Source: Rosistilla oblonga (GTDB taxonomy: Bacteria > Planctomycetota > Planctomycetia > Pirellulales > Pirellulaceae). From it: a stretch of DNA of 64,000 nt. Shown in pieces: positions 26,298 to 48,997 of the stretch (positions are counted from its first letter, which is position 1; every line of letters starts with the position of its first letter). Under the pieces are notes generated by a model that was not told the origin of the DNA, did no database searches, and saw nothing but the letters and a program-made list of their open reading frames with translations. A program made the position numbers and the translations under genes. Location: the NCBI RefSeq assembly GCF_007751715.1, contig NZ_CP036292.1, positions 5,091,339 through 5,155,338 on the forward strand. Direction: 5' to 3'.

Positions 26298-26335
26298 GCT
26301 AAACCGCCACTCTTGGTCTCTACTGGATTGATTCG

Positions 26336-27463: not shown

Positions 27464-27609
27464 CCGAATCTCCAGAGCGTCGTGTAATCCATTCTGAACC
27501 CCTGCCGTACCGCGCCCGACTGCCGAACGCGTCGCACTTGTTCTACGACAAGCAGCGCCGACCAGCAACAACCGAACAGATGGTTACCAACGGCAAGCCG
27601 CAGAGCTCG

Positions 27610-29006: not shown

Positions 29007-32000
29007 ATGAATGCTTCCCACCAAAGCCAAGCACGCACGTTTGCGGAGCTGTTGTCCGAACGAGCCGCGCGACATCCCGAGCGCCCAGCAATCAAGTTTC
29101 TTGCCGAGGGGACCGAGGTAACGCACCAGGTCTCTTATCAACAACTGCATGCCCGTGCTGCGGCGATTGGATCGTGGCTGTCGGATCGCGGTTTACGTGG
29201 CCGCCCGGTGCTGTTGGTCTTTCCACAAAGCATCGACTACGCCGCGGCCTTCTTCGGTTGCCTGTATGCCGGCGCAATTGCCGTTCCCGCCTATCCTCCG
29301 CGACGCAATCGCAATCTCGATCGGCTGCAAAGCATGGCCAGCGACAGCGGCGCCGATGTAATCCTGACCAACAATGAACTATTGGAATCCTTGAGCGCCT
29401 GGGTCGATGAAGACAATCCCCTTGGCCAGCGTTCTCTGCAATCGATCGATACCCTGGCCGACGACCCTCAGTTCAATCCGGCCTTCGGCGCCGATCCGCA
29501 AGCGGTTGCCTTCCTGCAATACACATCGGGATCGACCGGTGCCCCCAAGGGCGTGATCGTCACCAACCGGAATCTGATCGAAAACCAAATCATGATCACC
29601 GAGATCTTCGGGCAACGCGAAGATGAAGTGATCATGTGCGGTTGGCTGCCGATGTATCACGACATGGGGCTGATCGGCAACCTGCTGCATCCGCTCTACC
29701 TGGGCGGACATCTGGTATTAATGTCGCCCTTCACCTTCTTCCAAAAACCGCTCTGTTGGCTGCAAGCGATCTCCAATCATCGCGCCACGATCAGCGGCAG
29801 TCCGAACTTTGGCTACGACATGTGCGTCGAAGCACTCAGCCAACAAGAACGCGACAGCCTCGACCTCAGCAGTTGGAACCTGGCATTTAATGGCGCCGAA
29901 CCGGTCCGCCACGCGACGCTGCAACGGTTTATCAAAACCTTCCAACCGCACGGTTTCTCCCCCGCCGCCTTCTCGCCCTGTTTTGGGATGGCGGAAACGA
30001 CGCTGATTGTCAGCGGGACGCGGCGTCCCGATGAGGCCCAATCGATCGTTGTCGATGCAGAATCTTTGCATCAAGGAACCGTGGAACCTCCGTCCGAAAA
30101 CCCCTCGGCACCACCGTTGACGATCGTTTCGTCGGGACGTCCCGGCAGCGATTTTGACGTCCGCATCGTCGATCCCGAAACGCGCGTTGAATTGCCTGAA
30201 AAACAAACGGGCGAGGTCTGGGTTCACGGCCCCAGCGTCACCGATGGTTACTGGAACAAGCCCACCGAAACCCAGCAGACGTTCCAGGGGATCATCGCCG
30301 CAGACGCCGCGCCAGCGAAACAGTTCCTTCGCACCGGCGACCTCGGATTCCTAAGCGATGGGGAACTGTACGTCACCGGACGACTGAAAGACACGATCAT
30401 CGTTGCCGGTGCCAACCATTACCCTAGCGATATCGAAGAAACCGTCGTCGCCAGCCATTCGGCTTTGGCGATCGGTGGCGGCGTAGCCTTCTCGATCGAC
30501 CGCGACGACCGCGAACAGGTCTTTGTCGCGCAGGAACTGAAGCGTTCCCAATGGCGTTCCTATGATAAAGACGAAGTCATCTCTGCGGTCTACGGTCGCG
30601 TCTTCCAAGACCATGGGCTCGCGCTCGCTGGCATCGTGCTGTTGCGTCCGGGGTCGATTCCCAAGACGACCAGCGGAAAACTACAGCGTCGCCTAACTGC
30701 CAAGATGTTTGTCGACGGCGACCTGAAGTCGTTGGTCGATTGGTCGCGCGACGATGCGATGACGCATCCGCACGCCAACGAATCGGAACCAGCACACGCC
30801 GAAGCGGCTCCGACGAACGAAGTTTCATCCGCCGCCCCCCCTTCGTCCGAATCGAGCGAACGACAAGACCAACTTGCCGAACTGCAAGCCTGGATGACGT
30901 CGCAACTGGCGACGCTGTTGCAGATCGCCCCTGGATCGATCTCCGCCAACGAACCGCTGGCATTATATGGACTCACTTCCGTTGCAGCCGTTCGCCTGGC
31001 CGGAATGCTGTCGCAACATGTCGGGCAACCGATCGACCCTACGTTGGCTTACAATTTCCCAACGATCGATTCGATCTGTCGGCACCTGGTGCTCGGCGAA
31101 TCAGCCCGCAGTTTGCCAAGCCGCGATGTTTCGTCTGATCCTTCGGTTTCGAATGACGACCCCATTGCGATCATCGGCATGGCATGCCGTTTTCCCGGAG
31201 CGGCATCGATCGACGAATTCTGGGACCTGTTGACCTCCGGTGGCTGCGCGATCCAGTCGGCGCGTGACGGGCAACCGACGTCCCCCAGTGGTTCGGTCAA
31301 CCCATCGGTGCCGACAGCGGCAGGTTACATCGATGCGGTCGACCAATTTGATCCCGCCTTCTTTTCGATCAGTCCGCGTGAAGCGGATGAGATGGACCCG
31401 CGGCAACGACTTGCGATGGAGGTCAGTTGGCGAGCGATCGAACACGCCAACATCGATCCACGCCGTCTGGCTGGTTCCAAGACCGGCGTCTTCTTCGGGG
31501 CCAGCGGGAACGATTACGAACGCCTGTGCAGCGCGGCGGGGCATCCGACCGGTGGGCATTCGGCGACCGGAGTCTCCCACGCGATCATCGCGAACCGAAT
31601 TAGTTACTTCTTGGATCTCCAAGGGCCCAGTTTCTCGGTCGACACCGCCTGTTCGTCGTCGTTAGTCGCGGTGCATCAAGCGGCTGAAGCGATCCGCGGC
31701 GGGCAGTGCGACACGGCGATCGCCGGCGGAGTTAATCTGATTCTCGATCCGTCGGTCACCAACGCGTTCCACGAAGCGGGGATGCTGTCGCCGACCGGTC
31801 AATGCAAGACCTTTGCCGCCGGAGCCAATGGTTTTGTCCGCGGTGAAGGCTGCGGAGTCGTCGTATTAAAACGACTCTCCCAAGCGGTGGCCGACCGCGA
31901 CAACGTGCTGTGTGTTCTGCGGGGATCGGCGATCAACCAAGACGGCCGTAGCAACGGCCTGACCGCTCCCAGCGGCCTTGCGCAACAGCAGGTCGTTCGC

Positions 32001-35000
32001 AGCGCATTGGCTAACGGCAACGTAGAGCCTGCGGAGGTTCAATACGTCGAAGCGCATGGCACCGGCACCGAGCTAGGCGATCCGATCGAGATCGGAGCTC
32101 TGACCGCTGTCTTTGGCGACCGCCCAAAGCCATTGTTGGTCGGGTCGGTCAAGACCAACATCGGTCACCTGGAAGCTGCCGCGGGAATCGCGGGCGTGAT
32201 CAAAACCGCATTGGCGATCCGGCACCAAATCATCCCACCGCACCTTGGCTTCGATGCCCCAAGTCCTCATATCGATTGGACTCAGCCGATCGAAGTTGCC
32301 CCCTCCGGAGCGATCTGGAATTGTGACGAAGGCCAGTTGCACCGTGCGGGAGTCAGCAGTTTTGGGTTCGGTGGCACCAACGCTCACCTGATCCTCGAGG
32401 CACCCGCATCGTCGTCGCCCGCTGGATCCGAGGCCGACGACTCAACCGCGGAACGATCGAACTTCCATCTGGTTAAATTTTCCGCCAAGAGCGACGAAGC
32501 GCTCGACGCATTGGTCGCCACGTTTATGGAGAGCGCCCCAACCGCAGAGCTCTCCGCCATCGCGGCATCGGCCAACTTGGGCCGGACCGATTTCCCACAT
32601 CGCTTGGTCGTGATTGCTTCGTCGACCGACGACCTCTGCCAGTGCCTTGGCAATCCCGACAACACATCGCGGGTTTTGCGAAGCCGCAGCGATTCACAGC
32701 GTCCTTCGGCCGAACAGGTGCGTCAATCGTTGCAGCAAGCGATTGCCAGCACGGCCACGCTCGACGACCTGCGGCAACTGGGGCAACACTACGTCGACGG
32801 CGCCGCGATCGATTGGCGTCAGGTCCACCCGAACGCCTCCCGACGGATCGACCTTCCCGGCCATCCGATGCTACGCCATCGCTGCTGGTTCCGAACGCAG
32901 CCGGCTGCTGACGCGGGGCATCCGCTTTCCGCCGACCTATCCTGCGAGCTTCCGTTGCTGGGGAACCGTTTCGATTTGGCGGGAGAGGCGATCGTTTTCG
33001 AGGCCGATCTTTCCACGGTCGATCTGTTGCACGATCATCGGCTGCGTGGTGAGATCATCTTCCCCACGACCGGTTACGTTGAACAAGCGCTCTCGGCGGC
33101 CCGAATCGCTAGCGGCAGCGCGGCTTGGGAAATCGAAGCTTTGCAAATCGCGCGACCGCTGGTGATTTCAGACGCGCGTCGCTGCCGAATTCAGATCCTT
33201 TTGGATCCGCAAGACAACGGGTACCATTGCCGCGTGCAACATCGCAGCGACAGCGGTTGGCAGCAGGTGGCGTCGTGTCAGATCGTCTCCAGCACGCCGC
33301 TGCTAACAACGCCACCGGCATGCGAACTCGCTTCGCCAGTACAGTGTTCCAGTGCGGATCACTACGCCCGCTGTGAAGCGTTAGGTTTGCAATACGGACC
33401 AGCGTTTCGTGGACTGATCGAAATTCAGTCCGATGCCGAGGTGGCGGTTGGTCGCGTCGCGTTGCCCCTTGGCACCGACGCTTTATCCTCCGCGGTGATC
33501 CATCCCGCCTTGTTGGACGCCTGCCTTCAAACCTTGGCGGTGCTGATCCCCGAAGAACTGGAGGGATTGTGGCTTCCCGTGGGTTTGCAGCGTTTTCGGT
33601 TCCTATCGGCAACGCCTTGCCGGGGCGAGCTCTCGGTCCGCAGCACACTCCGTTTCGACCAAGCGACCGCGTCGCTGATGGGCGATGTTTGGCTGTTGGA
33701 TTCCCACGATCATGTGATTGCAGTTGTCGAAGGCTTGCGATTGGAAAACGGCCAGCCCGTCGCACCGGTCTCGCGATACGAAGAAGCTTGGCTGCCAAAG
33801 ATTCGCCAGCACGAAGCGACGGCGCCGCCCGAGGTCACCGCCGTGGAGATCACTGCGGAGGTCTTGGCCAACCGCGGCGAACTGCTTGCCAAAACCGGAT
33901 TTGTCGATTCGATAGAGGCCCGGCAAATGTTGGACGCGTCCTGCCAACGCTGGGTGATCCAATGCTTGGTCAGCCTGATGGGACCGCTTCCCGCGGGCAA
34001 GACGCTGGTGCGCGATGACCTCCTAGTGCAATTGGGTTTGCTGCCCGAGAAGCATCGATCGTTCGAACGAATGCTGGAGATGTTAGTCGAAGACGGTCTG
34101 TTGGCCCGCGTCGAAAGCGGCTGGCAAACACGCGTTGCCTTGGAACCGGCCGAGGGCATTCCCACTCTCGAGGTTCAAGCGACACCGTTGACTGCGGCAG
34201 TGGCGTCGGAATGGGCCCTGTTGCAGCGTTGCGGTAGCCAGTTGGCGGAAGTGCTTGTCGGCGAGGTCGACCCGTTGGATCTGTTGTTCCCCAGGCAAGG
34301 CGTGACGGCGGCAGATGTTTATAAGACGTCGCCGGGGGCTCGCACGATCAACGCGATGTTGGGGCAAGCGATCGAAGCCATCGTCGCCGAATTGCCCGAC
34401 GGACGTGGGCTCCGCGTGTTAGAGATCGGTGGCGGGACCGGCGGCACCACTCACAATGTGATACGCAGTCTGCCGGCGGGTCGTTTCCATTACACGTTTA
34501 CCGATATCGGTGCCAGTTTCCTTGCCGCGGCGCGGCAAACCTTTGCCAGTTGTGACGCGATCGATTTCAGAACGCTCGATATCGAACAGGCTCCCGAATC
34601 GCAGGGTTTCGATCCGGGCAGCTTTGATTTGGTGATCGCCGCCAACGTTTTGCACGCCACGCGCGATCTGAACCAGACCGTCGCCAACGCCCGTTCGTTG
34701 TTATCCGCCGGCGGCCAATTGCTGCTGCTGGAAGGTACTCGTCGCTGCCGCTGGATGGATCTGACGTTCGGATTAACCGATGGTTGGTGGCGGTTCGACG
34801 ACACGATCCGCTGCGACTACCCAATGGCCAGCGAATCGGCTTGGCAAACCGTGTTGACGGAAAACCAATTCGACAGCACGACGATCGTCAGTCCGCTGCC
34901 GGACGATGATTCCCGCGCGGTCAACACCGCCGAAAACGTCCTGATCGTGGCGACCGCCGATCGCGTGAAATCGAATCCGACTCGTGACCATTGGACGATC

Positions 35001-37775
35001 GTTACCGACCGGATCTCGCGTTGCCAACGCCTCGGCAAGCGTTTGGTCAATGAAGGGTGTACGTTTGAATTGGTCGATGCGACCGCCGACGATTTCGCCG
35101 CTGACGTCCGCAGTGCGATGACCCATTATCCCGGCACGCAGCACATCGCGTTTGTCGCAAGTCGGTCCCATGGTGACACCAGCGAACATGCACGAACCGC
35201 GTCTTTGCGGTTTCTGCAAACGGTGCAAGAAATTTTGTCTAAGGCAACGGGGCCCATCGAATTGGCGTTGATCACGTCCGATGCCGCGACCGATCCGACC
35301 GCGTCGGCGCTGAAAGGAATGCTTCGCTCGATCGCGTTGGAACAGCCCGATTGGCGTGTTCGTTCGATCGATGCGGCCGGCAACAACGATAGATTCTCGC
35401 GACAGGTAGCCGCTGAAATGTTGAGCGGCGATGCCGAGCCTGAGGTCTCGCTTGCGACCGATCGCCGTGTCCGCCGACTGTTGCTGGCCCAAGCCGATCT
35501 GGTCGCCGACAGCGGACGCGTGTTGCGAGTCGCCGCGCGAGGCACGCTGGAAGGTGTTCGTTTGGAATCGGTCAAGCGGCGCGAACCGGGACGCCGCGAA
35601 GTCGAAATCGCCGTGCTGGCCAGCGGATTGAACTATCGGGACGTTTTGTTGGCGATGGGAATGTACCCTGGCGAAGCGCCGTTGGGAGCCGAATGCGTCG
35701 GACGCATTACGCGCCTGGGCCGCGACGTGCAATCGCATCAAGTGGGTGATCTGGTGATCGCCCTTGGCGAAGAGACGTTCGCCGACTATGTCACCGTTTC
35801 GGCGGCGCGGATCACCGAATTGCCCAAGGGGCTCGGATATGCAGAGGCCGCGACGGTTCCGGTCGCTTTCTTGACTGCGTCGTTCGCCTTGGAGACGCTC
35901 GGCAATTTGCAGCCTGGCCAACGCGTGCTGATCCATTCGGCCACGGGCGGCGTCGGTTTGGCGGCGATCCAAATCGCGAGAGCTTTGGGGGCGGAGATCT
36001 TTGCGACCGCAAGCACCAGCAAACACGCGGTCTTGCGTGAGCTGGGGATCTCACGTGTCTTCGATTCGCGATCGCCCGGCTTTGCCACCGCGATCGCCGC
36101 TGCGACTCAGGGGCACGGTGTCGATCTGATCCTCGATACGCTGCCCGAATCGATGTTCCAAGAGAATCTCGATTCGCTGGCCGATGGGGGCGTCTACATC
36201 GACATCACCAAACCGACCACCGACCGCGGCAGCAACTCACGTTTTGGCGCTCGGGAATCGACAACGACCTATCACTTGCTGGACCTGGTTCAAATCCTGC
36301 AGCAAGAACCAAGCACGGCGATCCGGCGGCTTCGCGCCGTCCTGGCTCGGTTTGCCGATGGCAGTTACCAGCCGCTGCCGATGGAAACGTTCCGATTGTC
36401 GCACGCCGTGGATGCGATGCGGCAGATGCAGCTGGCCCGTCAGATCGGCAAGCTGGTCGTCGTCGCCGACGATGCGCCGCGACTGGCGTCGCGCGGGGCA
36501 CTCGATTTTCAAGAGCTCTCGATTCGCAAAGACGCCGCGTACGTGATCGCCGGTGGCCTGGGCGACTTGGGCCTGATGACTGCCGAATATTTGTCGCAGC
36601 GTGGGGCGGGCTTGATTGCCTTGGTCCAACGCAGTCGGCCGACCGCGGCGCAGCAGGCGGTGATCGGGCGGATCGAGAATGCGGGATCTCAAGTCCTAGT
36701 ATGTGAGGCGGATGTCGCCGACGGCGATCAAGTGGCGTCGTCCCTGCGGCGCGTTCGCGGCGAAGGGTTTCCGATCGCCGGGGTCATCCATTCGGCGGGT
36801 ATGTTGCGCGATGCATTTGTGGAAAATCAAAGCATTGAATCGTTTGCACAGGTATTCGATGTGAAAGCGGCGGGCGCGTGGCACCTGCACCAACTGACAC
36901 TCGACGATCCAATAGATCTGTTTGTTGTCTATTCATCGCTGGCGTCGGTGATCGGCGCCCCCGGGCAAGCCAACCACGCTGCGGCCAACGCCTTTTTGGA
37001 TGGCCTAGTTCGGCAGCGGATGGCTGCCGGATTGCCCGCGACCGACTTGAACTGGGGACCGTGGGGCACGATCGGCGAAGCGGCGCGCCGCGGTGCCGAC
37101 ACCCGCACCGACATGCAAGGCGTGGGCGTGATCCAACCGGCTGCCGGAGCGCTGACGATGCAGCGGATGTTGCAACGTAAATCAGCGATCGCTGCGATCG
37201 CGCAAATTAGTGGCGACGCGTTGCCGGATCGTTTGAAATCGCATCCTCTGTTGGAACAACTGCTGAACGAATCCGTGGCGGTTGCCGAGACGGAAGGTCG
37301 GATCGTCGACGAATTCCACAGGACCGAGGAATCCCAGCGGCCGGCGTTGATGTTGGATCATGTCCGGAAAACGCTGGCAGAAATCCTGGGAATGTCCGAT
37401 TCGTCGCGAATTTCCGCATCGACAGTGATGACAGATATTGGGCTCGATTCGTTAACGGCGCTCGAATTGCGAGATTCCCTACAAACCGACTTGGCAGCCG
37501 CGCTACCTGCATCATTGGTCTATGACTATCCATCGGTGCGGGAGTTGTCCAATTTCTTGCTGTCGGCCATAACGACGTCGGGAAAATGTGCCGATGATAG
37601 CAAACAGGAAGCTATGGGTGCCGTTAATGATCGGGCAAACCTTGCGTCGGGCCGCGATACGCAATCCGAAGAAGCCGCTGAGACACAACGTTCCGCGTCG
37701 GTGGTCAGCGTCTCCAACTCCATCGAAGCTTCATTAGAACAATTGAACGCAGAACTGAATCACTGGGAATCATGA
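29007..37775 (+). CDS. FAAL-loaded reducing polyketide synthase without AT (FAAL-ACP-KS-DH-MT-ER-KR-ACP)
   Basis: 2,922 residues from ATG 29007. Domains: fatty acyl-AMP ligase 1-560 (YTSGSTGAPKGV, TISGSPNFGYDMC, FSPCFGMAETTLIVSG); ACP about 625-700 with GLTS (Ser658); ketosynthase 715-1135 with Cys882 (DTACSSS), EAHGTGTELGDPIE and KTNIGHLEAAAG; dehydratase 1310-1590 with His1344 (DHRLRGEIIFP) and Asp in HPALLDACLQ; C-methyltransferase about 1700-2000 (VLEIGGGTGGTT); enoylreductase 2170-2490 (SATGGVGLAAIQIA); ketoreductase 2510-2720, where the expected Tyr before AAANAFLD is His2657; second ACP 2785-2855 (GLDS, Ser2815); then a helical tail. No acyltransferase lies between KS and DH. It loads a fatty acid and makes an alpha-methylated, reduced extension. 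Overlaps the next gene by ATGA. Confidence 0.93.
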   Translation: MNASHQSQARTFAELLSERAARHPERPAIKFLAEGTEVTHQVSYQQLHARAAAIGSWLSDRGLRGRPVLLVFPQSIDYAAAFFGCLYAGAIAVPAYPPRRNRNLDRLQSMASDSGADVILTNNELLESLSAWVDEDNPLGQRSLQSIDTLADDPQFNPAFGADPQAVAFLQYTSGSTGAPKGVIVTNRNLIENQIMITEIFGQREDEVIMCGWLPMYHDMGLIGNLLHPLYLGGHLVLMSPFTFFQKPLCWLQAISNHRATISGSPNFGYDMCVEALSQQERDSLDLSSWNLAFNGAEPVRHATLQRFIKTFQPHGFSPAAFSPCFGMAETTLIVSGTRRPDEAQSIVVDAESLHQGTVEPPSENPSAPPLTIVSSGRPGSDFDVRIVDPETRVELPEKQTGEVWVHGPSVTDGYWNKPTETQQTFQGIIAADAAPAKQFLRTGDLGFLSDGELYVTGRLKDTIIVAGANHYPSDIEETVVASHSALAIGGGVAFSIDRDDREQVFVAQELKRSQWRSYDKDEVISAVYGRVFQDHGLALAGIVLLRPGSIPKTTSGKLQRRLTAKMFVDGDLKSLVDWSRDDAMTHPHANESEPAHAEAAPTNEVSSAAPPSSESSERQDQLAELQAWMTSQLATLLQIAPGSISANEPLALYGLTSVAAVRLAGMLSQHVGQPIDPTLAYNFPTIDSICRHLVLGESARSLPSRDVSSDPSVSNDDPIAIIGMACRFPGAASIDEFWDLLTSGGCAIQSARDGQPTSPSGSVNPSVPTAAGYIDAVDQFDPAFFSISPREADEMDPRQRLAMEVSWRAIEHANIDPRRLAGSKTGVFFGASGNDYERLCSAAGHPTGGHSATGVSHAIIANRISYFLDLQGPSFSVDTACSSSLVAVHQAAEAIRGGQCDTAIAGGVNLILDPSVTNAFHEAGMLSPTGQCKTFAAGANGFVRGEGCGVVVLKRLSQAVADRDNVLCVLRGSAINQDGRSNGLTAPSGLAQQQVVRSALANGNVEPAEVQYVEAHGTGTELGDPIEIGALTAVFGDRPKPLLVGSVKTNIGHLEAAAGIAGVIKTALAIRHQIIPPHLGFDAPSPHIDWTQPIEVAPSGAIWNCDEGQLHRAGVSSFGFGGTNAHLILEAPASSSPAGSEADDSTAERSNFHLVKFSAKSDEALDALVATFMESAPTAELSAIAASANLGRTDFPHRLVVIASSTDDLCQCLGNPDNTSRVLRSRSDSQRPSAEQVRQSLQQAIASTATLDDLRQLGQHYVDGAAIDWRQVHPNASRRIDLPGHPMLRHRCWFRTQPAADAGHPLSADLSCELPLLGNRFDLAGEAIVFEADLSTVDLLHDHRLRGEIIFPTTGYVEQALSAARIASGSAAWEIEALQIARPLVISDARRCRIQILLDPQDNGYHCRVQHRSDSGWQQVASCQIVSSTPLLTTPPACELASPVQCSSADHYARCEALGLQYGPAFRGLIEIQSDAEVAVGRVALPLGTDALSSAVIHPALLDACLQTLAVLIPEELEGLWLPVGLQRFRFLSATPCRGELSVRSTLRFDQATASLMGDVWLLDSHDHVIAVVEGLRLENGQPVAPVSRYEEAWLPKIRQHEATAPPEVTAVEITAEVLANRGELLAKTGFVDSIEARQMLDASCQRWVIQCLVSLMGPLPAGKTLVRDDLLVQLGLLPEKHRSFERMLEMLVEDGLLARVESGWQTRVALEPAEGIPTLEVQATPLTAAVASEWALLQRCGSQLAEVLVGEVDPLDLLFPRQGVTAADVYKTSPGARTINAMLGQAIEAIVAELPDGRGLRVLEIGGGTGGTTHNVIRSLPAGRFHYTFTDIGASFLAAARQTFASCDAIDFRTLDIEQAPESQGFDPGSFDLVIAANVLHATRDLNQTVANARSLLSAGGQLLLLEGTRRCRWMDLTFGLTDGWWRFDDTIRCDYPMASESAWQTVLTENQFDSTTIVSPLPDDDSRAVNTAENVLIVATADRVKSNPTRDHWTIVTDRISRCQRLGKRLVNEGCTFELVDATADDFAADVRSAMTHYPGTQHIAFVASRSHGDTSEHARTASLRFLQTVQEILSKATGPIELALITSDAATDPTASALKGMLRSIALEQPDWRVRSIDAAGNNDRFSRQVAAEMLSGDAEPEVSLATDRRVRRLLLAQADLVADSGRVLRVAARGTLEGVRLESVKRREPGRREVEIAVLASGLNYRDVLLAMGMYPGEAPLGAECVGRITRLGRDVQSHQVGDLVIALGEETFADYVTVSAARITELPKGLGYAEAATVPVAFLTASFALETLGNLQPGQRVLIHSATGGVGLAAIQIARALGAEIFATASTSKHAVLRELGISRVFDSRSPGFATAIAAATQGHGVDLILDTLPESMFQENLDSLADGGVYIDITKPTTDRGSNSRFGARESTTTYHLLDLVQILQQEPSTAIRRLRAVLARFADGSYQPLPMETFRLSHAVDAMRQMQLARQIGKLVVVADDAPRLASRGALDFQELSIRKDAAYVIAGGLGDLGLMTAEYLSQRGAGLIALVQRSRPTAAQQAVIGRIENAGSQVLVCEADVADGDQVASSLRRVRGEGFPIAGVIHSAGMLRDAFVENQSIESFAQVFDVKAAGAWHLHQLTLDDPIDLFVVYSSLASVIGAPGQANHAAANAFLDGLVRQRMAAGLPATDLNWGPWGTIGEAARRGADTRTDMQGVGVIQPAAGALTMQRMLQRKSAIAAIAQISGDALPDRLKSHPLLEQLLNESVAVAETEGRIVDEFHRTEESQRPALMLDHVRKTLAEILGMSDSSRISASTVMTDIGLDSLTALELRDSLQTDLAAALPASLVYDYPSVRELSNFLLSAITTSGKCADDSKQEAMGAVNDRANLASGRDTQSEEAAETQRSASVVSVSNSIEASLEQLNAELNHWES

Positions 37776-40700
37776 CCGACTCGCTCCGCTTTTCGACCGA
37801 ACAACAAGTTGTCGACGCCTTGACCAAGGCGTCCCAATTGTTGGCCGATGCGCGTCGCAAGCGGGACGAACCGATTGCGGTGATCGGAATGGGATGCCGG
37901 TTCCCCGGAGCGGTCGATCTGGACGCGTTCTGGAAATTGTTACACGACGGGGAGTGCGCGATCGGTCGTGTGCCTAGCGATCGTTGGGATGCCGCGGCGT
38001 TCACGTCGCCACAGCCCAAGGTGCCTGGCAAGATGATCACCGATCGGGCCGGTTTCATTGACGAGGTCGATCAATTTGATTCGCGATTTTTCGAGATCAC
38101 CCGCCGCGAAGCGAGTTCGCTGGACCCGCAACAGCGACTGCTGTTAGAGACCGCTTGGCGAACGCTGGAACATGCCGGTGTTCCCCTCGAAAGTACCGCC
38201 GGCGGCCGACATGGGGTCTTTGTCGGGATCTGCAGCAGCGACTATTTGGCTTTGCTGAATAAGACTCACCAGTCGGCGATCGACGCCTATCGCGGAACGG
38301 GCAACGCCCACGGAACCGCCGCGGGCCGATTGAGCTACTTTATGAAGTGGCAGGGGCCCAGCGTCGCGATCGATACCGCCTGTTCATCATCGCTTGTCGC
38401 GTTGCACCACGCCATCGGCAGCCTCCGTGGCGAGGAGTGTGAGATGGCGTTGGTTGCGGGGGTGAATCTGATCCTGACGCCGGACTTGAGTATCAATCTG
38501 TCGCAAGCGGGCATGCTGTCGCCGCAAGGACTTTGCCAAGCGTTCGCCGCATCGGCCAACGGCTTTGTCCGTGGCGAAGGCTGTGGCGCGGTGCTGCTGA
38601 AACGACTCGGCGACGCGATCCGAGATGGCGATCGCATCGTTTGCTGCCTGAGCGGATCGGCCGTCAATCAAGACGGACGCAGCAATGGCCTGACCGCTCC
38701 CAACGGAATCGCCCAGCAGGACGTGATCCGCGCCGCGTTGCAACGCAGTCGCCTGAAGCCCGATGCGATCGACTACATCGAGGCCCATGGAACCGGCACA
38801 CCGCTGGGAGACCCCATCGAAATGCGGGCGTTGGGCGAGGTCTTCGGCCAACGAACCCGCCCCTTGCTGGTCGGATCGGTGAAGACGAACATCGGCCACT
38901 TGGAAGGAGCCGCTGGCGTCGCCGGATTGATCAAGACCTGTCTGTCGCTGCAACACCAAACGTTGCCACGACACCTGCACTTTGATCAGCCGAGCGAGCA
39001 CATCGATTGGTCGTTGCCGATCCAAGTCACCGATCAACGCCGCCCCTGGCAGCCGGCAGCGACGTCGAATGACGACAGTCCCCTGCGGCGGGCTGGGATC
39101 AGCAGCTTTGGGTTTGGCGGTACCAACGCGCATGTGATCGTCGAAGAGTATCTCGCGACCGAATCGATGCTCCCCGCCGCTTCACAGCAAGGTCCGACGA
39201 TCATCAAACTGTCGGCGAAAACCGAAACCGCTTTGGAACGTTTGATCGATCTCTATGCGAGCGGGCTTCCCGATGCAGCCCTCTCGCAGATCGCGGCGAC
39301 CGCCAACTTGGGACGCGACGACTTTCCGTTCCGCCGCTTCGTGGTCGCTCGCAACCGTGAAGAACTGCTCGCGGGCCTTCGCGGCCACGGATCGATCGCG
39401 GATCCCAACGATCCGTCTTTCGCCGACCTGATGCAGATCGGAAAGCGATACGTCGCGGGCGAAGCGATCGATTGGTCGGCGATCACCCCGGGCCGACGCG
39501 ATCAAATGGTCGCGCTGCCAGGACATCCCTTCAATCGTCAACGCTGCTGGCTGCCGCAAAACAATGCAGTCGCTGCGGTCAATCCCATCGCCAGCGCGTC
39601 GCTCGCCAGCCGCCCCCGCGCCGAGCACCCGTTGCTGGGCAACCAATTGGACCTGGCGGGCAAGTCGATAATTTTTGAGAGCGATCTCGCTAAGGTCGAT
39701 TACCTGGACGATCACCGCTTGCGGGGCGAAGCGATCTTCCCGGCGACTGGTTACGTCGAACAAGGGCTTGCCGCAGCCAAGCGTTTGGCTGGGCGAACGC
39801 TTAGCGTTCGCGAGCTGCAATTGCACCGCCCGCTCGTGATCGACAAGGACGCCTGCCGAGTGCAGATCGTGATGGAGCCCGACTTCAACGGCGGATACCG
39901 CTGCAGCATTCAACATCGCGGTGCCAGCCAGTGGCTTGAACACGCCTCGATGCACTTGCGCGAATCCGATCAAAACGAATTGCAGGTCGCCAGCTGGAAC
40001 GAGATCGGTCCGAAGGAGAACTGCGAAGATCATATCGCCGTCGACGAACACTATGCAGCGATGGATGCGATGGGCATCCAATATGGTTCGGCGTTTCGTG
40101 GACTGCGTTGTCTGAGCACCCGCGGCGCGGCTGCCTATGGCCTGGTTCAACTGCCCGCCTCCGCGGGCGATCCGGCGCACTACTGCGTCCACCCGGCGCT
40201 GTTGGACTCTGCATTGCAGATCCTGGCAACCTTGGTCCCAACAGTTCAGCGGGCGATGTGGTTGCCGGTGTCGATCGATCGCGTTGATTTTGCCAATCTC
40301 GACGTCTCGCCCGATAACGTGTATGTCGGTGGGCGATTGTTGCGCGACCAAACGACCGATCAATGGATCGGCGATATCCAGATCTGCGATCAAACGCAAA
40401 CCGTCATCGGAAATATCCGCGGCTTGCGACTGCAGCGACTGGCGGCTCCGCAGTCTCAATCGAGTCGAACCCCGTCGAGCAATTCAGCCTCGACGGCATC
40501 GATCGGCAAGCCGTCGGATTACGCCGACGGTGCCGCTTACGAAGCCAAGTTGTTGGATTTCGCGCAACAAAAGGTCGCCGAAATCGCGGAGATTGAATTG
40601 CATGAAGTTCTCCTAGATTCCCCGCTGACGTCGCTGGGACTCGATTCCATCATGGCGATCGAATTGCAGGACGTGCTTGAAAAAGAATTAGACATCCACG

Positions 40701-40834
40701 TCTCGATGGATCTGTTCTTGAAGGATCTGAGCCTGCGAGCCCTGCTGCACGAAGTGCTTTCCACGAGCCAATCAGGCGACGCACATCACGCGAGCTCGTC
40801 CTCCGACGACGCATGGGTTGAGGGGGCGTTATGA
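37772..40834 (+). CDS. Polyketide synthase module without AT or KR (KS-DH-ACP)
   Basis: 1,020 residues. An N-terminal helix of about 30 residues (QQVVDALTKASQLLADARRK) probably docks to the previous ACP. Ketosynthase 33-460 has Cys204 (DTACSSSLVAL), EAHGTGTPLGDPIE and KTNIGHLEGAAG. A 150-residue linker follows with no GxSxG acyltransferase motif. Dehydratase about 605-885 has His648 (DHRLRGEAIFP) and the Asp of VHPALLDSALQ. The ACP is near 925-1000 with GLDSIMAIEL (Ser959). There is no ketoreductase, so the dehydratase lacks an in-module hydroxyl substrate. Coupled to both neighbours by ATGA overlaps. It adds one unit after the first synthase and hands over to the NRPS. Confidence 0.92.
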   Translation: MTDSLRFSTEQQVVDALTKASQLLADARRKRDEPIAVIGMGCRFPGAVDLDAFWKLLHDGECAIGRVPSDRWDAAAFTSPQPKVPGKMITDRAGFIDEVDQFDSRFFEITRREASSLDPQQRLLLETAWRTLEHAGVPLESTAGGRHGVFVGICSSDYLALLNKTHQSAIDAYRGTGNAHGTAAGRLSYFMKWQGPSVAIDTACSSSLVALHHAIGSLRGEECEMALVAGVNLILTPDLSINLSQAGMLSPQGLCQAFAASANGFVRGEGCGAVLLKRLGDAIRDGDRIVCCLSGSAVNQDGRSNGLTAPNGIAQQDVIRAALQRSRLKPDAIDYIEAHGTGTPLGDPIEMRALGEVFGQRTRPLLVGSVKTNIGHLEGAAGVAGLIKTCLSLQHQTLPRHLHFDQPSEHIDWSLPIQVTDQRRPWQPAATSNDDSPLRRAGISSFGFGGTNAHVIVEEYLATESMLPAASQQGPTIIKLSAKTETALERLIDLYASGLPDAALSQIAATANLGRDDFPFRRFVVARNREELLAGLRGHGSIADPNDPSFADLMQIGKRYVAGEAIDWSAITPGRRDQMVALPGHPFNRQRCWLPQNNAVAAVNPIASASLASRPRAEHPLLGNQLDLAGKSIIFESDLAKVDYLDDHRLRGEAIFPATGYVEQGLAAAKRLAGRTLSVRELQLHRPLVIDKDACRVQIVMEPDFNGGYRCSIQHRGASQWLEHASMHLRESDQNELQVASWNEIGPKENCEDHIAVDEHYAAMDAMGIQYGSAFRGLRCLSTRGAAAYGLVQLPASAGDPAHYCVHPALLDSALQILATLVPTVQRAMWLPVSIDRVDFANLDVSPDNVYVGGRLLRDQTTDQWIGDIQICDQTQTVIGNIRGLRLQRLAAPQSQSSRTPSSNSASTASIGKPSDYADGAAYEAKLLDFAQQKVAEIAEIELHEVLLDSPLTSLGLDSIMAIELQDVLEKELDIHVSMDLFLKDLSLRALLHEVLSTSQSGDAHHASSSSDDAWVEGAL

Positions 40835-43800
40835 TTTCGATTGATCCCGTTGTCGGCAACCTGGTCGCAGACCTGCGCCAGCGTGGCGTGAAGCTGTGGA
40901 ATGACGGAGGCTTGCTCCGTTTCAGCGCCTCAAAAAGTGCGCTCTCGCCAGCGCTGATGCTGCAGATGCGAAAGCATAAAGCCGCAATTTTGGATTTGCT
41001 GCAGCAAGAATCTCCCGTCGAAGCCGACGACCAGCAAACCGGTCCGGTTTCCCTGGGGCAGGAATCGCTGTGGTTGCTGCACAAGCAATTCCCCGACAGT
41101 CCCGCCTATAACACGGCGGCTACGCTGCGATTTTTAGCCCCCGTCGATGTCGGCGCGCTCCGCGCCGCGTTTCAGAAACTGATCGCACGTCACGAACCGC
41201 TGCGAACCACCTTTGCCGCCGCAGGGCAGGATGTTCAGGCCATCGTGCATTCGAGCGCGACGCTTGATTTCCAGCAGGTTGGCGTCGCGAATATCGCCGA
41301 CGACGCGGCACTGCATCAATGCGTACGATCCGAATACTTGCATCCGTTTCGCCTCGACCAAAGTCCGCTGATGCGAGTCCGATTGTTTACGCGATCGGCC
41401 AACGATCAGATCCTTTTAATCGTCGTCCACCATATCGTTTTCGACGCCTGGTCGTTGTGGGTGATGCAAGATGAACTGAAGCAGTTGTATGCCAGTGAAG
41501 TCGCTGGCACAGATTGTTTGTTGCCTACGTTGCCGGCCAAATACAGCGACTTTGTCCGCTGGCAACGCGAGTTTCCCGAGACCGCTGCGGGCAACAAACA
41601 ATGGGATTACTGGAAACAGCAATTGGCGGGCGATCCGGTGCCTGCGGAACTGTTGTGGGACCGACCACGCCCGCGTCGCAGTGCAGCGCAGGGAGCGACG
41701 TTGCATTTCCCGATCGACAATCAATTATCGGCTGGCCTGCGACAGTTGGGGCGAGAGAACAACGCGACTCCACTGGCCACGGGGCTGGCGGTTTTTCAAA
41801 CGCTGCTGTTTCGGCTGACTCACGTCGAGGACGCGGTCGTGGGGATGACAACCGCCGGGCGTTCCACACGTGAATACGGCAACGCGATCGGCTATTTCGT
41901 CAACACGCTGCCGATCCGCGGACGAATTCAGGGACAGCTGAAATTCGCGGAAGTTCTGGCGTCGGCGATGCAAACGACTGTCGAAGCGCGGCAATCGCAA
42001 GACTTTCCCTTTGCACTCCTTGTCCAGCGTCTGCAACCGGTCCGCGATTTGTCGGCACCGCCACTGTGCCGTGTCGTGTTTGGGCTGCAGAAGCCGATGG
42101 CCGGCGATGACGTGGCGGGCTTGTTGGCTGGTAGCGACCAGGCCGTCGAGTGGGGTGACACCCGCGTTGCCTGCTATCCGATGGATCAACAGGAAGGTCA
42201 GTTCGATCTGGTGCTGGAACTCTACCAGACACCCGACGGCTACACCGGCGTGTTGAAGTACGACGAAAACCTGCTGCAGCCGGCATCGGCGCAGCGATTC
42301 GCCAACCGCTTCGTCCATCTGTTGCGTCAGGTTGTCGCGGATCCCAATCGAGCGATCGATGATTATTCGATCGTTCCCAACGACGAACAATCGGAATTGA
42401 TGCAGTTGTCGGTCGCACCCGCGATCGACGATCCACAACACCTTCGCTACGACCGCTGGTTTGAAGAACAAGCTGCCGCGACGCCGGGCAAGCTGGCCGC
42501 GGTCTTCGGCTCGACCCAGCTGACCTATGCCGAACTAGACGCCCAGGCGAATCGCGTCGCTCGGCTGCTGCAGCAACACGGCGCAACGGTCGACAGCCAC
42601 GTGATCGTCGCTGGCAATCGCACGATTGAAGCCCCGATCATGATGTTGGCCTGTTTCAAAATCGGCGCCGCCTATGTGCCGATGGCGCCAGCGACACCCG
42701 AGGTCCGCGCTTGCCAAATCGTCAGCGACTGCAACCCAGCGATCGTCGTCGCCGAAGCCAAGTTAGCCGCATCGCTTGCCGAAGCCTTGCCGCAGCGGTG
42801 CGTGCTCGATGCGTCGACGCTGTTGGAATCAGCCAAAAATTTGGACGCTACACCGATCGACGTATCGTTTGACGAAGCGACAACGGCTTACATGATCTGC
42901 ACCTCGGGATCGACCGGAACGCCCAAAGGGATCGCCGTCTCACATGCCGCTCTCTGTCGTCACACCGCCAGCATGCGTGAGGTCTTTGACACGACGGCCG
43001 ACGATCGCATGTACCAGTTCAGCGACCTGACCTTTGATCCGTCGATCGAACAGATGGTTGTCCCATGGTCGGTTGGCGGAACCGTTGTTTTTCGCGACGA
43101 CAACTTGCCGTCGGTCGAAGCGTTTTGGCAGACGATGCTGGATCAAAAGATCACGATCGCTAACCTGCCTCCCAAGTATTTCGAAGAGTGCAGTCGAGCG
43201 ATCCCGTTTGGCGATGCCTGGCCGCGAAGCCTGCGGTTGATGATCGTTGGCGGCGACGTCTTCCCACGCGATGTGGCTAGCGACTGGATCGATCGCGGCG
43301 TCCGACTGCTCAACGCCTACGGTCCCACCGAGACCGTGATCACCGCGACGACCTGCGATGTGACAGCCGACTGGGCCCGCCAGAGATTACCGATTGGCAA
43401 ACCGAAGCCCGGCTCGACAGCTTTCGTATTGGATCGGCAGCATAGACCAATGCCGATCGGTGTCGCGGGTGAACTCTTTTTGGGCGGGCCAATGCTGGCC
43501 GACGGATACGTCAATCTGCCCGAAGAGACGGCCCAGCGGTTTGTCGAAATCGAAGTCGCGGGGGTGTCTCGGCGGCTGTATCGATCGGGCGATCTGACGC
43601 GTTGGAACGCCGAGGGTCAGTTGGAGTTTTTGGGCCGCATCGATCGCCAAGTGAAGATCCGCGGTTTCCGGATCGAGCTGGGGGATATCGAAGCGGCGTT
43701 GGGATCCCATCCGGGCGTCAGCGCTGGGATCGTGAAGGCGTTTGAAGATGCTGGCGATACGTATCTGGCGGCGTTCCTGACAACCGAACCCACCGACGAT

Positions 43801-44250
43801 GTGAGCGTCGAATCGATTACGTCACATCTTAAGGGGCGTCTGCCGATTTACATGGTTCCGCAGCGGGTCGTGATCCTGGATCAATTGCCCCTGTTGGCCA
43901 GTGGCAAGATCGATGTGAACCGACTGCACGCCGATCCTCCGTCGGCCGCCGCGATGCAGCGAGAATATGTCGCGCCGCGAACCGAGGTCGAAACTATCAT
44001 GGCCGATGTTTGGGCGAGCGTCTTGAATTTGGAACGGGTTGGAATCGACGACGACTTCTACGACCTCGGCGGCGGATCGCTGCAAGCGCTTCGCATCGTA
44101 TCGGAATTGGCAGCTCAAGACCTTGTTTCGCACAGCGACGACGACAGCGCTCCGTTAAGCCCACAGATGCTGTTTCAGTACACGACGATTTCAGAACTTT
44201 CACCCCACCTGGGGTTAGCGAGTAAAGAGACTGATGTTAATGAAGAATAA
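40831..44250 (+). CDS. Single-module NRPS with TubC-like docking domain (C-A-T)
   Basis: 1,139 residues. Residues 1-60 (DLRQRGVKLWNDGGLLRF, LMLQMRKHKAAILDLL) match the TubC N-terminal docking domain that receives a PKS carrier. Condensation domain 70-490 has the HHxxxD motif (VVHHIVFDAW, His200). Adenylation 525-1000 has CTSGSTGTPKG, NAYGPTET, YRSGDLTRW, the GRIDRQVKIRGFRIE core and the terminal Lys in ASGKIDVNRL. Specificity residues read by hand are D-P-E-N-I-G-A-I-T-K; Asp736 indicates an alpha-amino acid. Carrier domain Ser1083 (DLGGGSLQ). There is no epimerase, thioesterase or reductase at the end. It condenses the polyketide acyl chain with an amino acid. Confidence 0.93.
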   Translation: MISIDPVVGNLVADLRQRGVKLWNDGGLLRFSASKSALSPALMLQMRKHKAAILDLLQQESPVEADDQQTGPVSLGQESLWLLHKQFPDSPAYNTAATLRFLAPVDVGALRAAFQKLIARHEPLRTTFAAAGQDVQAIVHSSATLDFQQVGVANIADDAALHQCVRSEYLHPFRLDQSPLMRVRLFTRSANDQILLIVVHHIVFDAWSLWVMQDELKQLYASEVAGTDCLLPTLPAKYSDFVRWQREFPETAAGNKQWDYWKQQLAGDPVPAELLWDRPRPRRSAAQGATLHFPIDNQLSAGLRQLGRENNATPLATGLAVFQTLLFRLTHVEDAVVGMTTAGRSTREYGNAIGYFVNTLPIRGRIQGQLKFAEVLASAMQTTVEARQSQDFPFALLVQRLQPVRDLSAPPLCRVVFGLQKPMAGDDVAGLLAGSDQAVEWGDTRVACYPMDQQEGQFDLVLELYQTPDGYTGVLKYDENLLQPASAQRFANRFVHLLRQVVADPNRAIDDYSIVPNDEQSELMQLSVAPAIDDPQHLRYDRWFEEQAAATPGKLAAVFGSTQLTYAELDAQANRVARLLQQHGATVDSHVIVAGNRTIEAPIMMLACFKIGAAYVPMAPATPEVRACQIVSDCNPAIVVAEAKLAASLAEALPQRCVLDASTLLESAKNLDATPIDVSFDEATTAYMICTSGSTGTPKGIAVSHAALCRHTASMREVFDTTADDRMYQFSDLTFDPSIEQMVVPWSVGGTVVFRDDNLPSVEAFWQTMLDQKITIANLPPKYFEECSRAIPFGDAWPRSLRLMIVGGDVFPRDVASDWIDRGVRLLNAYGPTETVITATTCDVTADWARQRLPIGKPKPGSTAFVLDRQHRPMPIGVAGELFLGGPMLADGYVNLPEETAQRFVEIEVAGVSRRLYRSGDLTRWNAEGQLEFLGRIDRQVKIRGFRIELGDIEAALGSHPGVSAGIVKAFEDAGDTYLAAFLTTEPTDDVSVESITSHLKGRLPIYMVPQRVVILDQLPLLASGKIDVNRLHADPPSAAAMQREYVAPRTEVETIMADVWASVLNLERVGIDDDFYDLGGGSLQALRIVSELAAQDLVSHSDDDSAPLSPQMLFQYTTISELSPHLGLASKETDVNEE

Positions 44251-46249
44251 CGATACCATGCTGCGTTCCGTCATTGAGAGCATTGGTGTTTACCTGCCTT
44301 CAAACGAAGTCACGACCGACGAGATTGTGAAGGGCTGCGAGCGGAAGGTTCGCGTGCCGTTAGCGAAATTGACCGGCATTCGCTCGCGCCGCCGCGCTGG
44401 AGTCGATGAATTTTCGATCGATCTGGCAGAGAAAGCTGTCGGCGATTGCCTGGACCATTCGTCGCTGGCGGCCGACCAAGTCGACGCGATCGTCTGCACC
44501 AACATCTCGCGCTGGGACGACAAAAATTCGGTCACCTTTGAACCGGCAACCAGCGTCCGACTGAAGTCGATGCTCGGGCTGGACAACGCCATCGCAATCG
44601 ACATCTCCAACGCTTGCGCGGGGATGTGGACCGGCGTCTATATGGTCGACGCACTGATTCGCAGCGGTGCGATCCGCAGCGGGATGGTCGTCAGCGGCGA
44701 ATACATCACACACCTGATCGATACCGCGCAGAAGGAGATCGTCGACTTCATGGATCCGCAACTGGCGTCGCTGACGTTGGGGGACGCGGGTGTCGCGTTG
44801 ACCTTGACCGCCGCTGGTTCGGCGGGCAGCGGGTTTCACGATTTGGACATGTACACGCTCAGCAAATACAGCCAGTTTTGTGTCGCCAAGCCAACCGATA
44901 AGCCTCACGGCGGCGCGGCGATGTACACCGACGCGATCAAAGTTACCGAATCGGTGGTGCCTCACGCAGCGCGGCACGCCAAAGACATCCTGGATCGGAA
45001 TGAATGGGGGTTTGATGCCGTTGGCCATGTAATCCCACATCAAACCAGTAAGCTCACGATGCAAGAAGGGATGCGGGAAATCAAGCGTCTGTTTGACTAC
45101 GATCTTTCGCAATGCCTAATCAACAACTTGGAACAACGTGGCAACACGTCCAGCAACGCCCACTTCCTGGCTTTGCACGACGCGATGCGGCGGCGCGAGG
45201 TGAAAGGGGGCGATTCGATCATCTTCTGCATTTCGGGATCGGGGCAAACGACGGGGACCGCACTTTATGTGTGCGATGATTTGCCCGAACGGATCAACGC
45301 CGAAGACGCCAAAAGCGGCAAGCCACGGCGCGAGGTCGCGTCGAACGAATCAGCCTTGATGCCGATCCAATTGCAAGTCGAATCGATCGGCGTCGCGTAT
45401 CCGCCAACGCGTGAGTCGGCTGATACGCTGACCATGCTGCAACAGGCCGGCGAGCAGTGCCTGGAACAATCCAGTTGTGAAAAACAGGACATCGATATCC
45501 TGATCGCCGCCTGCACCTACCGAACCGAATTTGTCATGGAACCGGCGATCGCGGCGCTGCTAGCTGGGCGGATGGAGATCAACTTCGATCGCGAACCCGA
45601 TGCCGCCGACAAGACGTTTGCCTTCGATGTAATCAACGGTGAAGTGGGGATGATGAAGTCGCTATTCCTGGCTTCGGAGTTTATTCGCGCCGGACGTGGT
45701 CAGAAGGTGATGGTGGTCGGTTCGGAAGTCGACAACAACGCAGCGGATCGCCCCGAGCAATCGCTGGACGTTTCGCCGATGGCATCGGCGATGATCGTGC
45801 AAGAATCGGTCGATGCGACTAACGGATTCCTGTCGTTCCATTTCCAAGACTTCACGCAGTTCAAGGACCTCCGAAAAACAGAAGTCAACTGGAACGAACG
45901 AGGGCAAGCTTGTTTGCACTGCACCGACCAACCCGATGCGTTGCATGCGGCGTATCTGGAATGCATCGAGACAACGGTCGCGAATTTCTTAAAAAACAAC
46001 GAGCTTTCGCTCGATGACATCGCCCGCATCGTTCCCTCCCCGATCTCCAGCGTCTTTGTCGCCGACGTTGCGGCGCGGTTGCAATTCCCCGCCGATAAAA
46101 CGCTCGACATCTCCGACGCCAACGGTTCGCTGATGTCTTCAGCGATCCCGGTCGGGGTGAAGAACCTCGATGCCGCCCCCGGCGAGATGGTGCTCTTTAT
46201 TAGCGTCAGCCCCGGTATCCAGATCGGATGTGCCCTCTACATTGCGTAG
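44234..46249 (+). CDS. Tandem KAS III (FabH-like) protein, second half catalytically dead
   Basis: 671 residues made of two FabH-like thiolase-fold halves. The first (1-365) has the full triad: Cys128 (DISNACAGMWTG), His269 (IPHQTS) and Asn304 (RGNTSSNAHF). The second (375-671) keeps the fold, but the Cys position is in NGEVG (about 468-469), the His motif is PSPIS and only the DANGSLMSS loop remains. This recalls PqsC/PqsB, where one partner lacks the nucleophile, here fused in one chain. It overlaps the NRPS end by 17 bp. With no thioesterase in the line, it may offload or condense the final acyl-aminoacyl thioester. Starts at 44240 or 44258 are also possible. Confidence 0.88.
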   Translation: MLMKNNDTMLRSVIESIGVYLPSNEVTTDEIVKGCERKVRVPLAKLTGIRSRRRAGVDEFSIDLAEKAVGDCLDHSSLAADQVDAIVCTNISRWDDKNSVTFEPATSVRLKSMLGLDNAIAIDISNACAGMWTGVYMVDALIRSGAIRSGMVVSGEYITHLIDTAQKEIVDFMDPQLASLTLGDAGVALTLTAAGSAGSGFHDLDMYTLSKYSQFCVAKPTDKPHGGAAMYTDAIKVTESVVPHAARHAKDILDRNEWGFDAVGHVIPHQTSKLTMQEGMREIKRLFDYDLSQCLINNLEQRGNTSSNAHFLALHDAMRRREVKGGDSIIFCISGSGQTTGTALYVCDDLPERINAEDAKSGKPRREVASNESALMPIQLQVESIGVAYPPTRESADTLTMLQQAGEQCLEQSSCEKQDIDILIAACTYRTEFVMEPAIAALLAGRMEINFDREPDAADKTFAFDVINGEVGMMKSLFLASEFIRAGRGQKVMVVGSEVDNNAADRPEQSLDVSPMASAMIVQESVDATNGFLSFHFQDFTQFKDLRKTEVNWNERGQACLHCTDQPDALHAAYLECIETTVANFLKNNELSLDDIARIVPSPISSVFVADVAARLQFPADKTLDISDANGSLMSSAIPVGVKNLDAAPGEMVLFISVSPGIQIGCALYIA

Positions 46250-48989: not shown

Positions 48990-48997
48990 GGCAAGAA

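Follow-up and report, generated by a model that had tools for sequence, protein, structure and literature searches.

The stretch analysed here, hereafter the window, comprises 64,000 nucleotides of the Rosistilla oblonga genome (contig NZ_CP036292.1), which was analysed as one contig of 7,250,512 bases with a completeness of 99.85%. It contains a four-gene operon on the forward strand (29007-46249) encoding proteins P1 to P4, with overlaps of 4, 4 and 17 bp between successive genes. Open reading frame (ORF) reading and Pfam searches (E<=0.01 for the domain calls in P1-P4) confirmed the operon as real, in agreement with the initial annotation, which had described a coupled operon, overlapping at ATGA, ATGA and 17 bp, of a fatty acyl-AMP ligase (FAAL), two polyketide synthase (PKS) modules, a nonribosomal peptide synthetase (NRPS) module and a tandem beta-ketoacyl-ACP synthase III (KAS III). 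The order given by Pfam is FAAL-ACP-KS-DH-cMT-ER-KR-ACP / KS-DH-ACP / TubC-C-A-PCP / tandem KAS III, so that the FAAL-ACP loading, the ketosynthase (KS) modules and the C-A-PCP module of a FAAL-primed PKS-NRPS hybrid were all found. The domain E-values lie between about 1e-8 and 1e-90 and these domains are therefore not matches by chance. The operon is also present in both other genomes of the genus that were searched (G552 and G553).

The P1 frame could also be opened by a TTG at 29004. The ketoreductase (KR) of P1 has the motif NHAAANAFLD, with a His that is also found in the related loci L107 and L110-L113, while P2 lacks a KR and has the same domain set as the corresponding L110 protein. 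Among the NCBIfam matches shown (the best 25 of 159 for P1 and 25 of 98 for P3), only the amino-acid adenylation domain of P3 passed its cut-off. The coordinates of these and other features are given in Table 1.

Table 1. Features of the operon, of its neighbourhood and of a candidate acyltransferase protein elsewhere in the genome
Feature	Position	Strand	Evidence
P1, 2922 aa from ATG: FAAL-ACP-KS-(AT-less linker)-DH-cMT-ER-KR-ACP	29007..37775	+	Pfam, NCBIfam
P1 FAAL loading domain, aa 10-588	29034..30770	+	PF00501 2.8e-70; NCBIfam FAAL models match below cut-offs
P1 loading ACP, aa 630-694	30894..31088	+	PF00550
P1 module 1 KS, aa 718-1082	31158..32252	+	PF00109 7.8e-88, PF02801 8e-44
P1 AT site of relatives: KS-AT and post-AT linkers retained, AT body gone	32259..32951	+	PF16197, PF22621; alignment with AT-bearing module 1 of L110-L113
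P1 module 1 DH	32952..33746	+	PF21089, PF14765
P1 C-methyltransferase core	34404..34727	+	PF08242 1e-19
P1 ER	35529..36461	+	PF00107, PF13602; TIGR02824 stretch 2175-2485, below cut-off
P1 KR	36534..37067	+	PF08659 6.3e-56
P1 module 1 ACP	37356..37517	+	PF23297 stretch 2784-2837; PF00550 gives two stretches in P1
P2, 1020 aa: KS-(AT-less linker)-DH-ACP, no KR	37772..40834	+	Pfam
P3, 1139 aa: TubC docking-C-A-PCP	40831..44250	+	Pfam
P4, 671 aa: two KAS III halves (LstA-like and LstB-like), proposed head-to-head Claisen release enzyme	44234..46249	+	Pfam, NCBIfam, alignment, tree, predicted structure
P4 Cys128, first-half nucleophile (predicted), 30/30 synthase-linked loci	44615..44617	+	Alignment
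P4 His269, first half, 30/30	45038..45040	+	Alignment
P4 Asn304, first half, 30/30	45143..45145	+	Alignment
P4 Glu436, second half, 30/30, aligned with LstB Glu60	45539..45541	+	Alignment
Extended short-chain dehydrogenase/reductase (SDR), epimerase/3-beta-HSD kind, divergent neighbour, candidate reductase	27610..28617	-	Pfam, NCBIfam, synteny
MacB/FtsX-type permease, candidate exporter, near operon in 6/8 genomes (not G543, G551)	26336..27571	-	Pfam, NCBIfam, synteny
LolD/MacB-type ABC ATPase, near operon in 7/8 genomes (not G551)	25599..26603	-	Pfam, NCBIfam, synteny
AT-DH-PPTase protein, 1139 aa, no KS	own genome C1:4305973-4309389 (L147:6971-10390)	-	AT 54 bits

Relatives of P4 were searched in a phylum sample of 392 genomes at 1e-20. 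Matches were found in 17 genomes, nearly all of them to one KAS III half at 25-33% identity, and besides the window a pair was present only in G192, as two genes. That pair (L055) lies on a contig of a metagenome-assembled genome (MAG) labelled Phycisphaera mikurensis and has an LstD homologue adjoining it. A profile made from P4 and the first gene of the G192 pair, used in one scan of contigs, gave 67 loci, including those of Streptomyces toxytricini (L079) and Nocardia brasiliensis (L060), whose oleACD clusters make beta-lactones (PMC7064751). In 16 of the 67 loci (L029-L041, L043, L045 and L046) the tandem has FAAL, KS, C, A or PCP domains as immediate neighbours; these loci belong to Planctomycetota (2), Bacteroidota (9), Chloroflexota (3) and Mycobacterium (2); the assembly line is not unique to the window, and most of these relatives keep an acyltransferase (AT) in module 1. 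Several Streptomyces loci, which have an adenylation domain some kilobases off, as in the lipstatin cluster, were not counted among the 16. KAS III pairs with no synthase were also seen in Acidobacteriota, Myxococcota, Aminicenantes and others.

Within the family, a P4-like protein was detected in 15 of 241 genomes at 1e-30, which makes it commoner there than the phylum sample had suggested. All 14 family genomes beyond the window have FAAL and/or A-PCP beside the tandem. L029 and the locus of G608 are one and the same contig of 5132 bases, which was counted once; the 16 loci, 13 family loci and the window make up the 30 synthase-linked loci considered below.

In 13 of these 30 loci (L033, L035, L036, L037, L039, L041, L103 and L114-L119) the last PCP or ACP and the tandem share a single ORF, which puts the tandem in the position that a thioesterase would occupy. 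Six of the 13 were scanned by Pfam, which gave FAAL-ACP-C-A-PCP-KAS-KAS for L114 (2531 aa), FAAL-ACP-KAS-KAS for L115 (1687 aa), FAAL-ACP-KS-AT-cMT-ACP-C-A-PCP-KAS-KAS for L116 (3932 aa), and C-A-PCP-KAS-KAS for L033, L037 and L039. The L115 protein (L115:838-5901, minus strand) has about 225 residues between the ACP and the KAS III pair that match no Pfam model. The usual release domains of assembly lines are thioesterases, reductases or cyclising condensation domains. None of the thioesterase or thioester-reductase models matched P1-P4, and no thioesterase or reductase model matched the other synthases scanned by Pfam (fused relatives and L110). The initial annotation had noted the lack of any standard release domain; this holds as far as the standard models go, although a release step is probably present in the form of the tandem itself.

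The catalytic residues of P4 point to a particular kind of release. In S. toxytricini, LstA pairs with LstB in a heterodimer, which converts two acyl-CoAs to an alpha-branched beta-keto acid by a non-decarboxylative Claisen condensation of acyl thioesters; LstA has the triad C128/H271/N305, and the E60A variant of LstB is inactive (PMC12141560). The corresponding four residues of P4, as well as E103, are present in all 30 synthase-linked loci, and the second-half position equivalent to the nucleophile is never Cys in them (E in 4, A in 10, S in 11, G in 5). Residue 60 of LstB, counted by eye in the frame read from the S. toxytricini DNA (L079), is the Glu of an EPA motif, the same as Glu436 of P4, and in OleA Glu117 likewise stands directly before a Pro (PMC7064751). 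At the sequence level, the Cys-His-Asn of the first half and the Glu-Pro of the partner half expected of a head-to-head enzyme are thus both found. A wider alignment of 81 first halves had Cys in 80 and Ser in one, His in 78 with three gaps, and Asn in 79 with two gaps; in 78 second halves Glu was invariant, and Cys occurred in three rows (L044, L079 and L084), of which the L079 row is a first half that was mis-assigned.

A quick maximum likelihood tree of 65 first halves, from which L108 (a 99% copy of the window) was omitted, placed the 29 remaining synthase-linked tandems in one clade (SH-aLRT 99). This clade is nested in a 57-row group (SH-aLRT 98) with LstA-type rows of Actinomycetota and synthase-less pairs, apart from six FabH-like rows. 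The rows with an OleA motif (L144 of the own genome and L009) fell outside the group on long branches, and their position is unsure. P4 is probably a fused LstA- and LstB-like pair with non-decarboxylative head-to-head Claisen activity.

The same residues bear on a different role for the pair, that of an acyltransferase passing the finished N-acyl amino acid to an O, N or S nucleophile, like AfcL or ChlB3. AfcL of the AFC-BC11 pathway, which also includes a FAAL, resembles what is proposed for P4 in being a KAS III-like protein that takes a peptidyl chain off its carrier, but it is a discrete protein that forms a C-N bond, and both it and ChlB3 have a Cys-His-Asp triad (PMC12186527), whereas all 30 tandems have Asn, together with the partner Glu, and group with LstA. 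The Asp/Asn difference is a pointer and not a proof, and we consider this role improbable.

Taken with the fusions, these data make it fairly probable that the window encodes a FAAL-primed PKS-NRPS line released by carbon-carbon bond formation through the tandem KAS III. Gene content around the relatives is consistent with this reading. In six of the nine Bacteroidota loci, the contig of the tandem also carries OleB, OleC and OleD homologues (identified by Pfam family and by their similarity to LstC and LstD), either inside the locus (L032, L040 and L045) or in adjoining stretches (L123 for L031, L122 for L034 and L124 for L046). For L030 the homologues lie on a different contig of its genome (L125), and the genome of L043 had no OleC or OleD match at 1e-20; the detailed examination covered these eight loci, all but L038. 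Apart from the tandem, the Bacteroidota Ole stretches gave no KAS III match at 1e-6, so the tandem fits as the OleA of these clusters, which also contain a luciferase-like monooxygenase, a P450 and a phosphopantetheinyl transferase (PPTase). A conserved protein of about 485 aa with no Pfam match (L034:8506-9963, with homologues in L032, L045, L123, L124 and L125) accompanies OleBCD in Bacteroidota.

This synteny is also relevant to the fate of the condensed chain. The Claisen step would give a beta-keto-gamma-amido thioester that, by chemical reasoning, is poised to cyclise, and no hydrolase domain was found by Pfam in the operon proteins; if the amide nitrogen then attacked the newly formed thioester, the chain would leave as an N-acyl 3-alkyl tetramic acid (pyrrolidinedione) and not as a free beta-keto acid. 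Such an outcome seems unlikely, given that OleBCD stand beside the tandem in the six Bacteroidota loci, that the known pathways use free acids or beta-lactones, and that LstAB yields beta-keto acids (PMC12141560).

Several observations weigh against release by carbon-carbon bond formation. An AlphaFold2 model of the tandem, built from a 17-sequence alignment, counts in favour of it (pLDDT 87.6, pTM 0.92), but the nearest solved structures by phmmer were FabH, with OleA not among the matches at 1e-10, and Foldseek also ranked FabH first, with the OleA of X. campestris first appearing at rank 37; the fold therefore does not separate FabH from OleA chemistry. The FabH likeness, and the fact that P4 is a separate protein in the window, would suit a KAS III acting at the start of the line, where a FabH-like condensation would make a special primer and release would be left to a thioesterase elsewhere in the genome. 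FAAL and ACP already load a primer, however, the fused tandems come after the last carrier domain, and the FabH-like KAS III of L011, L022 and L142, read by eye, have no Glu-Pro motif. A FabH-type primer synthase was rejected as the main interpretation on position and residues, and we regard it as quite unlikely. Other points concern gene context. The own genome has a separate stand-alone KAS III (L144:1402-2523, minus strand) with the OleA-like motif DFLEPATA, which is probably its own OleA, distant from OleC and OleD. The OleC and OleD homologues of this genome (E<=1e-20; C1:4558024 and C1:1930761) are outside the window and far from the operon, so the OleC and OleD that stand beside an OleA-type gene in an oleACD cluster are missing here. 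Since OleC also occurs in 227 of the 241 family genomes, these genes are uninformative for the operon, and they were dropped as support, the OleC gene being two genes from an MCH cyclohydrolase gene. No OleC or OleD match was found at 1e-20 in two tandem-carrying genomes, Thermosporothrix G625 and the Sphingobacteriales MAG G632, and the two Mycobacterium genomes have only distant ones (28-34% identity). The divergent SDR was matched at 1e-10 in only one of 16 further loci, L116, which is G551 again. Finally, the carrier-bound aminoacyl thioester is a putative substrate, among the relatives as well as here.

From the domain content, residues, clade, fusions, synteny and AT absence, the following chemistry can be proposed. 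The FAAL would adenylate a fatty acid and load it on the first ACP, module 1 would extend the chain, methylate its alpha carbon and reduce it, and module 2 (KS-DH-ACP, no KR) would probably add one further extension. Malonyl units would have to be supplied in trans, by FabD, by an AT-DH-PPTase protein or by the AT of another synthase, and C-A-PCP would join the acyl chain to one amino acid. The N-acyl-aminoacyl chain would be moved onto Cys128 of the tandem. Glu436 of the Cys-less half would deprotonate a second acyl thioester, in the way that Glu60 of LstB is thought to serve LstA, and this thioester would attack the bound chain in a non-decarboxylative Claisen condensation. The product set free would be a two-chain alpha-alkyl-beta-keto-gamma-acylamido acid, to be decarboxylated or reduced, with the divergent SDR as candidate reductase, and perhaps exported by the MacB-like transporter. 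The initial annotation had expected an alpha-methylated acyl chain capped by one amino acid; the product is probably not just that but an unusual two-chain lipid, in which the N-acyl aminoacyl chain is joined to a second acyl chain by a carbon-carbon bond.

The amino acid was approached through the specificity residues of P3, read from motifs as D-P-E-N-M-V-A-I-T under the position rule for such domains. These match none of the specificity codes known to us, and the pattern D-P-E-N-(M/L)-(V/L)-A-(I/V)-T is common to the window, its genus, L029 and g315. By the reference codes, seven relatives (L035, L037, L045, L046, L103, L114 and L117) have a glycine-like and two (L033 and L036) a serine-like pattern, and L116, L118, L039 and L041 have others; the L115 row belongs to a FAAL rather than to an A domain, and that of L109 duplicates L029. 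With serine, the skeleton after loss of CO2 would be that of 3-keto-dihydroceramide, and with glycine its 1-deoxymethyl analogue, which reduction, for example by the neighbouring SDR, would turn into a sphingoid alcohol. It is conceivable, if rather doubtful, that the fused pair adds a fatty acyl chain to the carboxyl carbon of an N-acyl amino acid in a new assembly-line termination that yields ceramide-like lipids with no serine palmitoyltransferase. N-acyl tyrosines are known planctomycete products, and an operon making stieleriacine-like compounds of this kind was also considered. It was rejected as very improbable: the main text of the biosynthesis paper contains no PKS, FAAL, ketoacyl or FabH (PMC12479983), and this chemistry has no need for a tandem.

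The NltAB pair of N. brasiliensis, linked to nocardiolactone, is close to P4, as is LstAB. To our knowledge, CorB and MxnB of corallopyronin and myxopyronin synthesis do not form a fused pair with a Cys-less half. LstAB has, like P4, an active Cys-His-Asn subunit and a Cys-less Glu partner and falls in the same sequence group, but its two subunits are discrete proteins that use CoA esters (PMC12141560), whereas P4 is one polypeptide tied to a FAAL-PKS-NRPS line and has no OleC or OleD neighbours in the window. OleA shares with P4 the Glu-Pro motif and the proposed reaction, and its partners OleBCD adjoin the Bacteroidota relatives of P4, but it is a homodimer (PMC7064751) with no assembly line. 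Head-to-head fusion of two chains is known for few synthases; these include the KAS III homologues CorB and MxnB, which fuse two assembly-line chains (PMC12304814), there making a pyrone from two polyketide chains, whereas P4 is predicted to join an aminoacyl and an acyl chain. As the initial annotation had supposed, no described planctomycete pathway with this combination was found in searches of an open-access library, nor was any description of a PKS-NRPS line that terminates in a fused LstAB-type pair, which is weak evidence of absence. If the proposal is correct, a covalently attached LstAB-type Claisen pair as the terminus of a FAAL-PKS-NRPS line would be a new mode of chain release, linking the synthesis of peptide-polyketides with the chemistry of two-chain lipids, beta-lactones or olefins, and skeletons in four phyla would have been missed by module-by-module prediction.

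The second unusual feature of the operon is the absence of AT domains in cis. The initial annotation had reported this and had named an AT found by profile search in either synthase as one observation that would refute its reading; PF00698 matched neither P1 nor P2. The genome has six PF00698 matches, none of them in or near the operon, which has no discrete AT gene. Six KS (PF00109) are encoded in ORFs longer than 1000 aa, and an AT is in the same ORF for 4/4 outside the operon and for 0/2 inside it. The modules are AT-less as in trans-AT type I PKS, but the operon differs from these in keeping both AT linkers, in having AT-bearing relatives and in having no AT gene of its own.

A module 1 AT was matched in 16 of the 17 loci outside the genus in which the KS of module 1 and the region downstream are visible (L030, L031, L033, L034, L037-L041, L043, L045, L046, L110-L113 and L116), the match in L040 being partial; L032, cut within the KS, was left out. 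It is absent in all three genomes of the genus of the window, where AT absence is thus a derived state by this comparison. The exception among the 17 was L039, with no AT match in module 1 by domain mapping and Pfam. Its protein, from Mycobacterium sp. GA-2829 (L039:2173-6696), is FAAL-ACP-KS-ACP, and both AT linkers still flank the gap, as read by eye there and by alignment in the window. In Mycobacterium sp. ACS1612 the related protein (L041) still has the AT, pointing to a separate loss. Module 2 lacks an AT in all seven loci that have this module (the window, L107, L108 and L110-L113; Pfam for the window and L110, domain mapping for the others).

Excision of the AT in place is not favoured, as the domains of module 1 are closer to the module 2 of the window than to the AT-bearing module 1 of L110: identities were 55% against 51% for KS, 40% against 27% for DH, 44% against 21% for the KS-AT linker and 48% against 29% for the post-AT linker. 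In trees, the two DHs of the genus grouped together (0.97), and the KSs grouped with module 2 weakly (0.79). These identities and trees make it at least as likely that a copied AT-less module took the place of module 1 in the window. AT in module 1 only (g315), in neither module (the genus of the window), and in one of two Mycobacterium relatives form a natural series, which makes the conversion of cis-AT synthases to AT-less ones testable.

Two of the genomic AT matches are in ORFs with no KS match, namely FabD (332 aa, C1:421640) and the AT-DH-PPTase protein. The latter was found at 1e-60 in eight of the 241 family genomes: the three AT-less operon genomes (G000, that of the window, with G552 and G553; 96-97% identical) and five that have no P4-like protein (G454, G455, G457, G458 and G584); the remaining 12 genomes with the operon all lack it. 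Its distribution coincides with the AT-less genus and makes it the better trans-AT candidate to set beside FabD, although its presence where there is no operon suggests that it may be part of another lipid synthase.

The divergent SDR is beside the operon in all eight family genomes examined (the window, G552, G553, G535, G543, G544, G545 and G551). LstD shares Pfam families with it, but NCBIfam does not support it as an OleD, with scores of 74 and 58 bits against cut-offs of 580; a hopanoid-associated epimerase model gave 103 bits, also below its cut-off. The ABC ATPase is at the opposite end of the operon in the four g315 genomes, and one of the same kind (42-45%) is near the two Mycobacterium loci. 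Elsewhere in the genome, the OleC-like ligase (L120:8022-9683, minus strand; G000 C1:4558024) is near an ATP-grasp gene and the MCH cyclohydrolase gene, and the occurrence of this ligase in 227 of 241 genomes suggests that almost all members of the family may have an ole-type pathway whose genes are scattered. Convergent with the operon is a gene for a beta-RFAP synthase-like GHMP protein (46254-47312, minus strand; below NCBIfam cut-offs), and next after it is one for an aminofutalosine-deaminase-like amidohydrolase (47751-49508).

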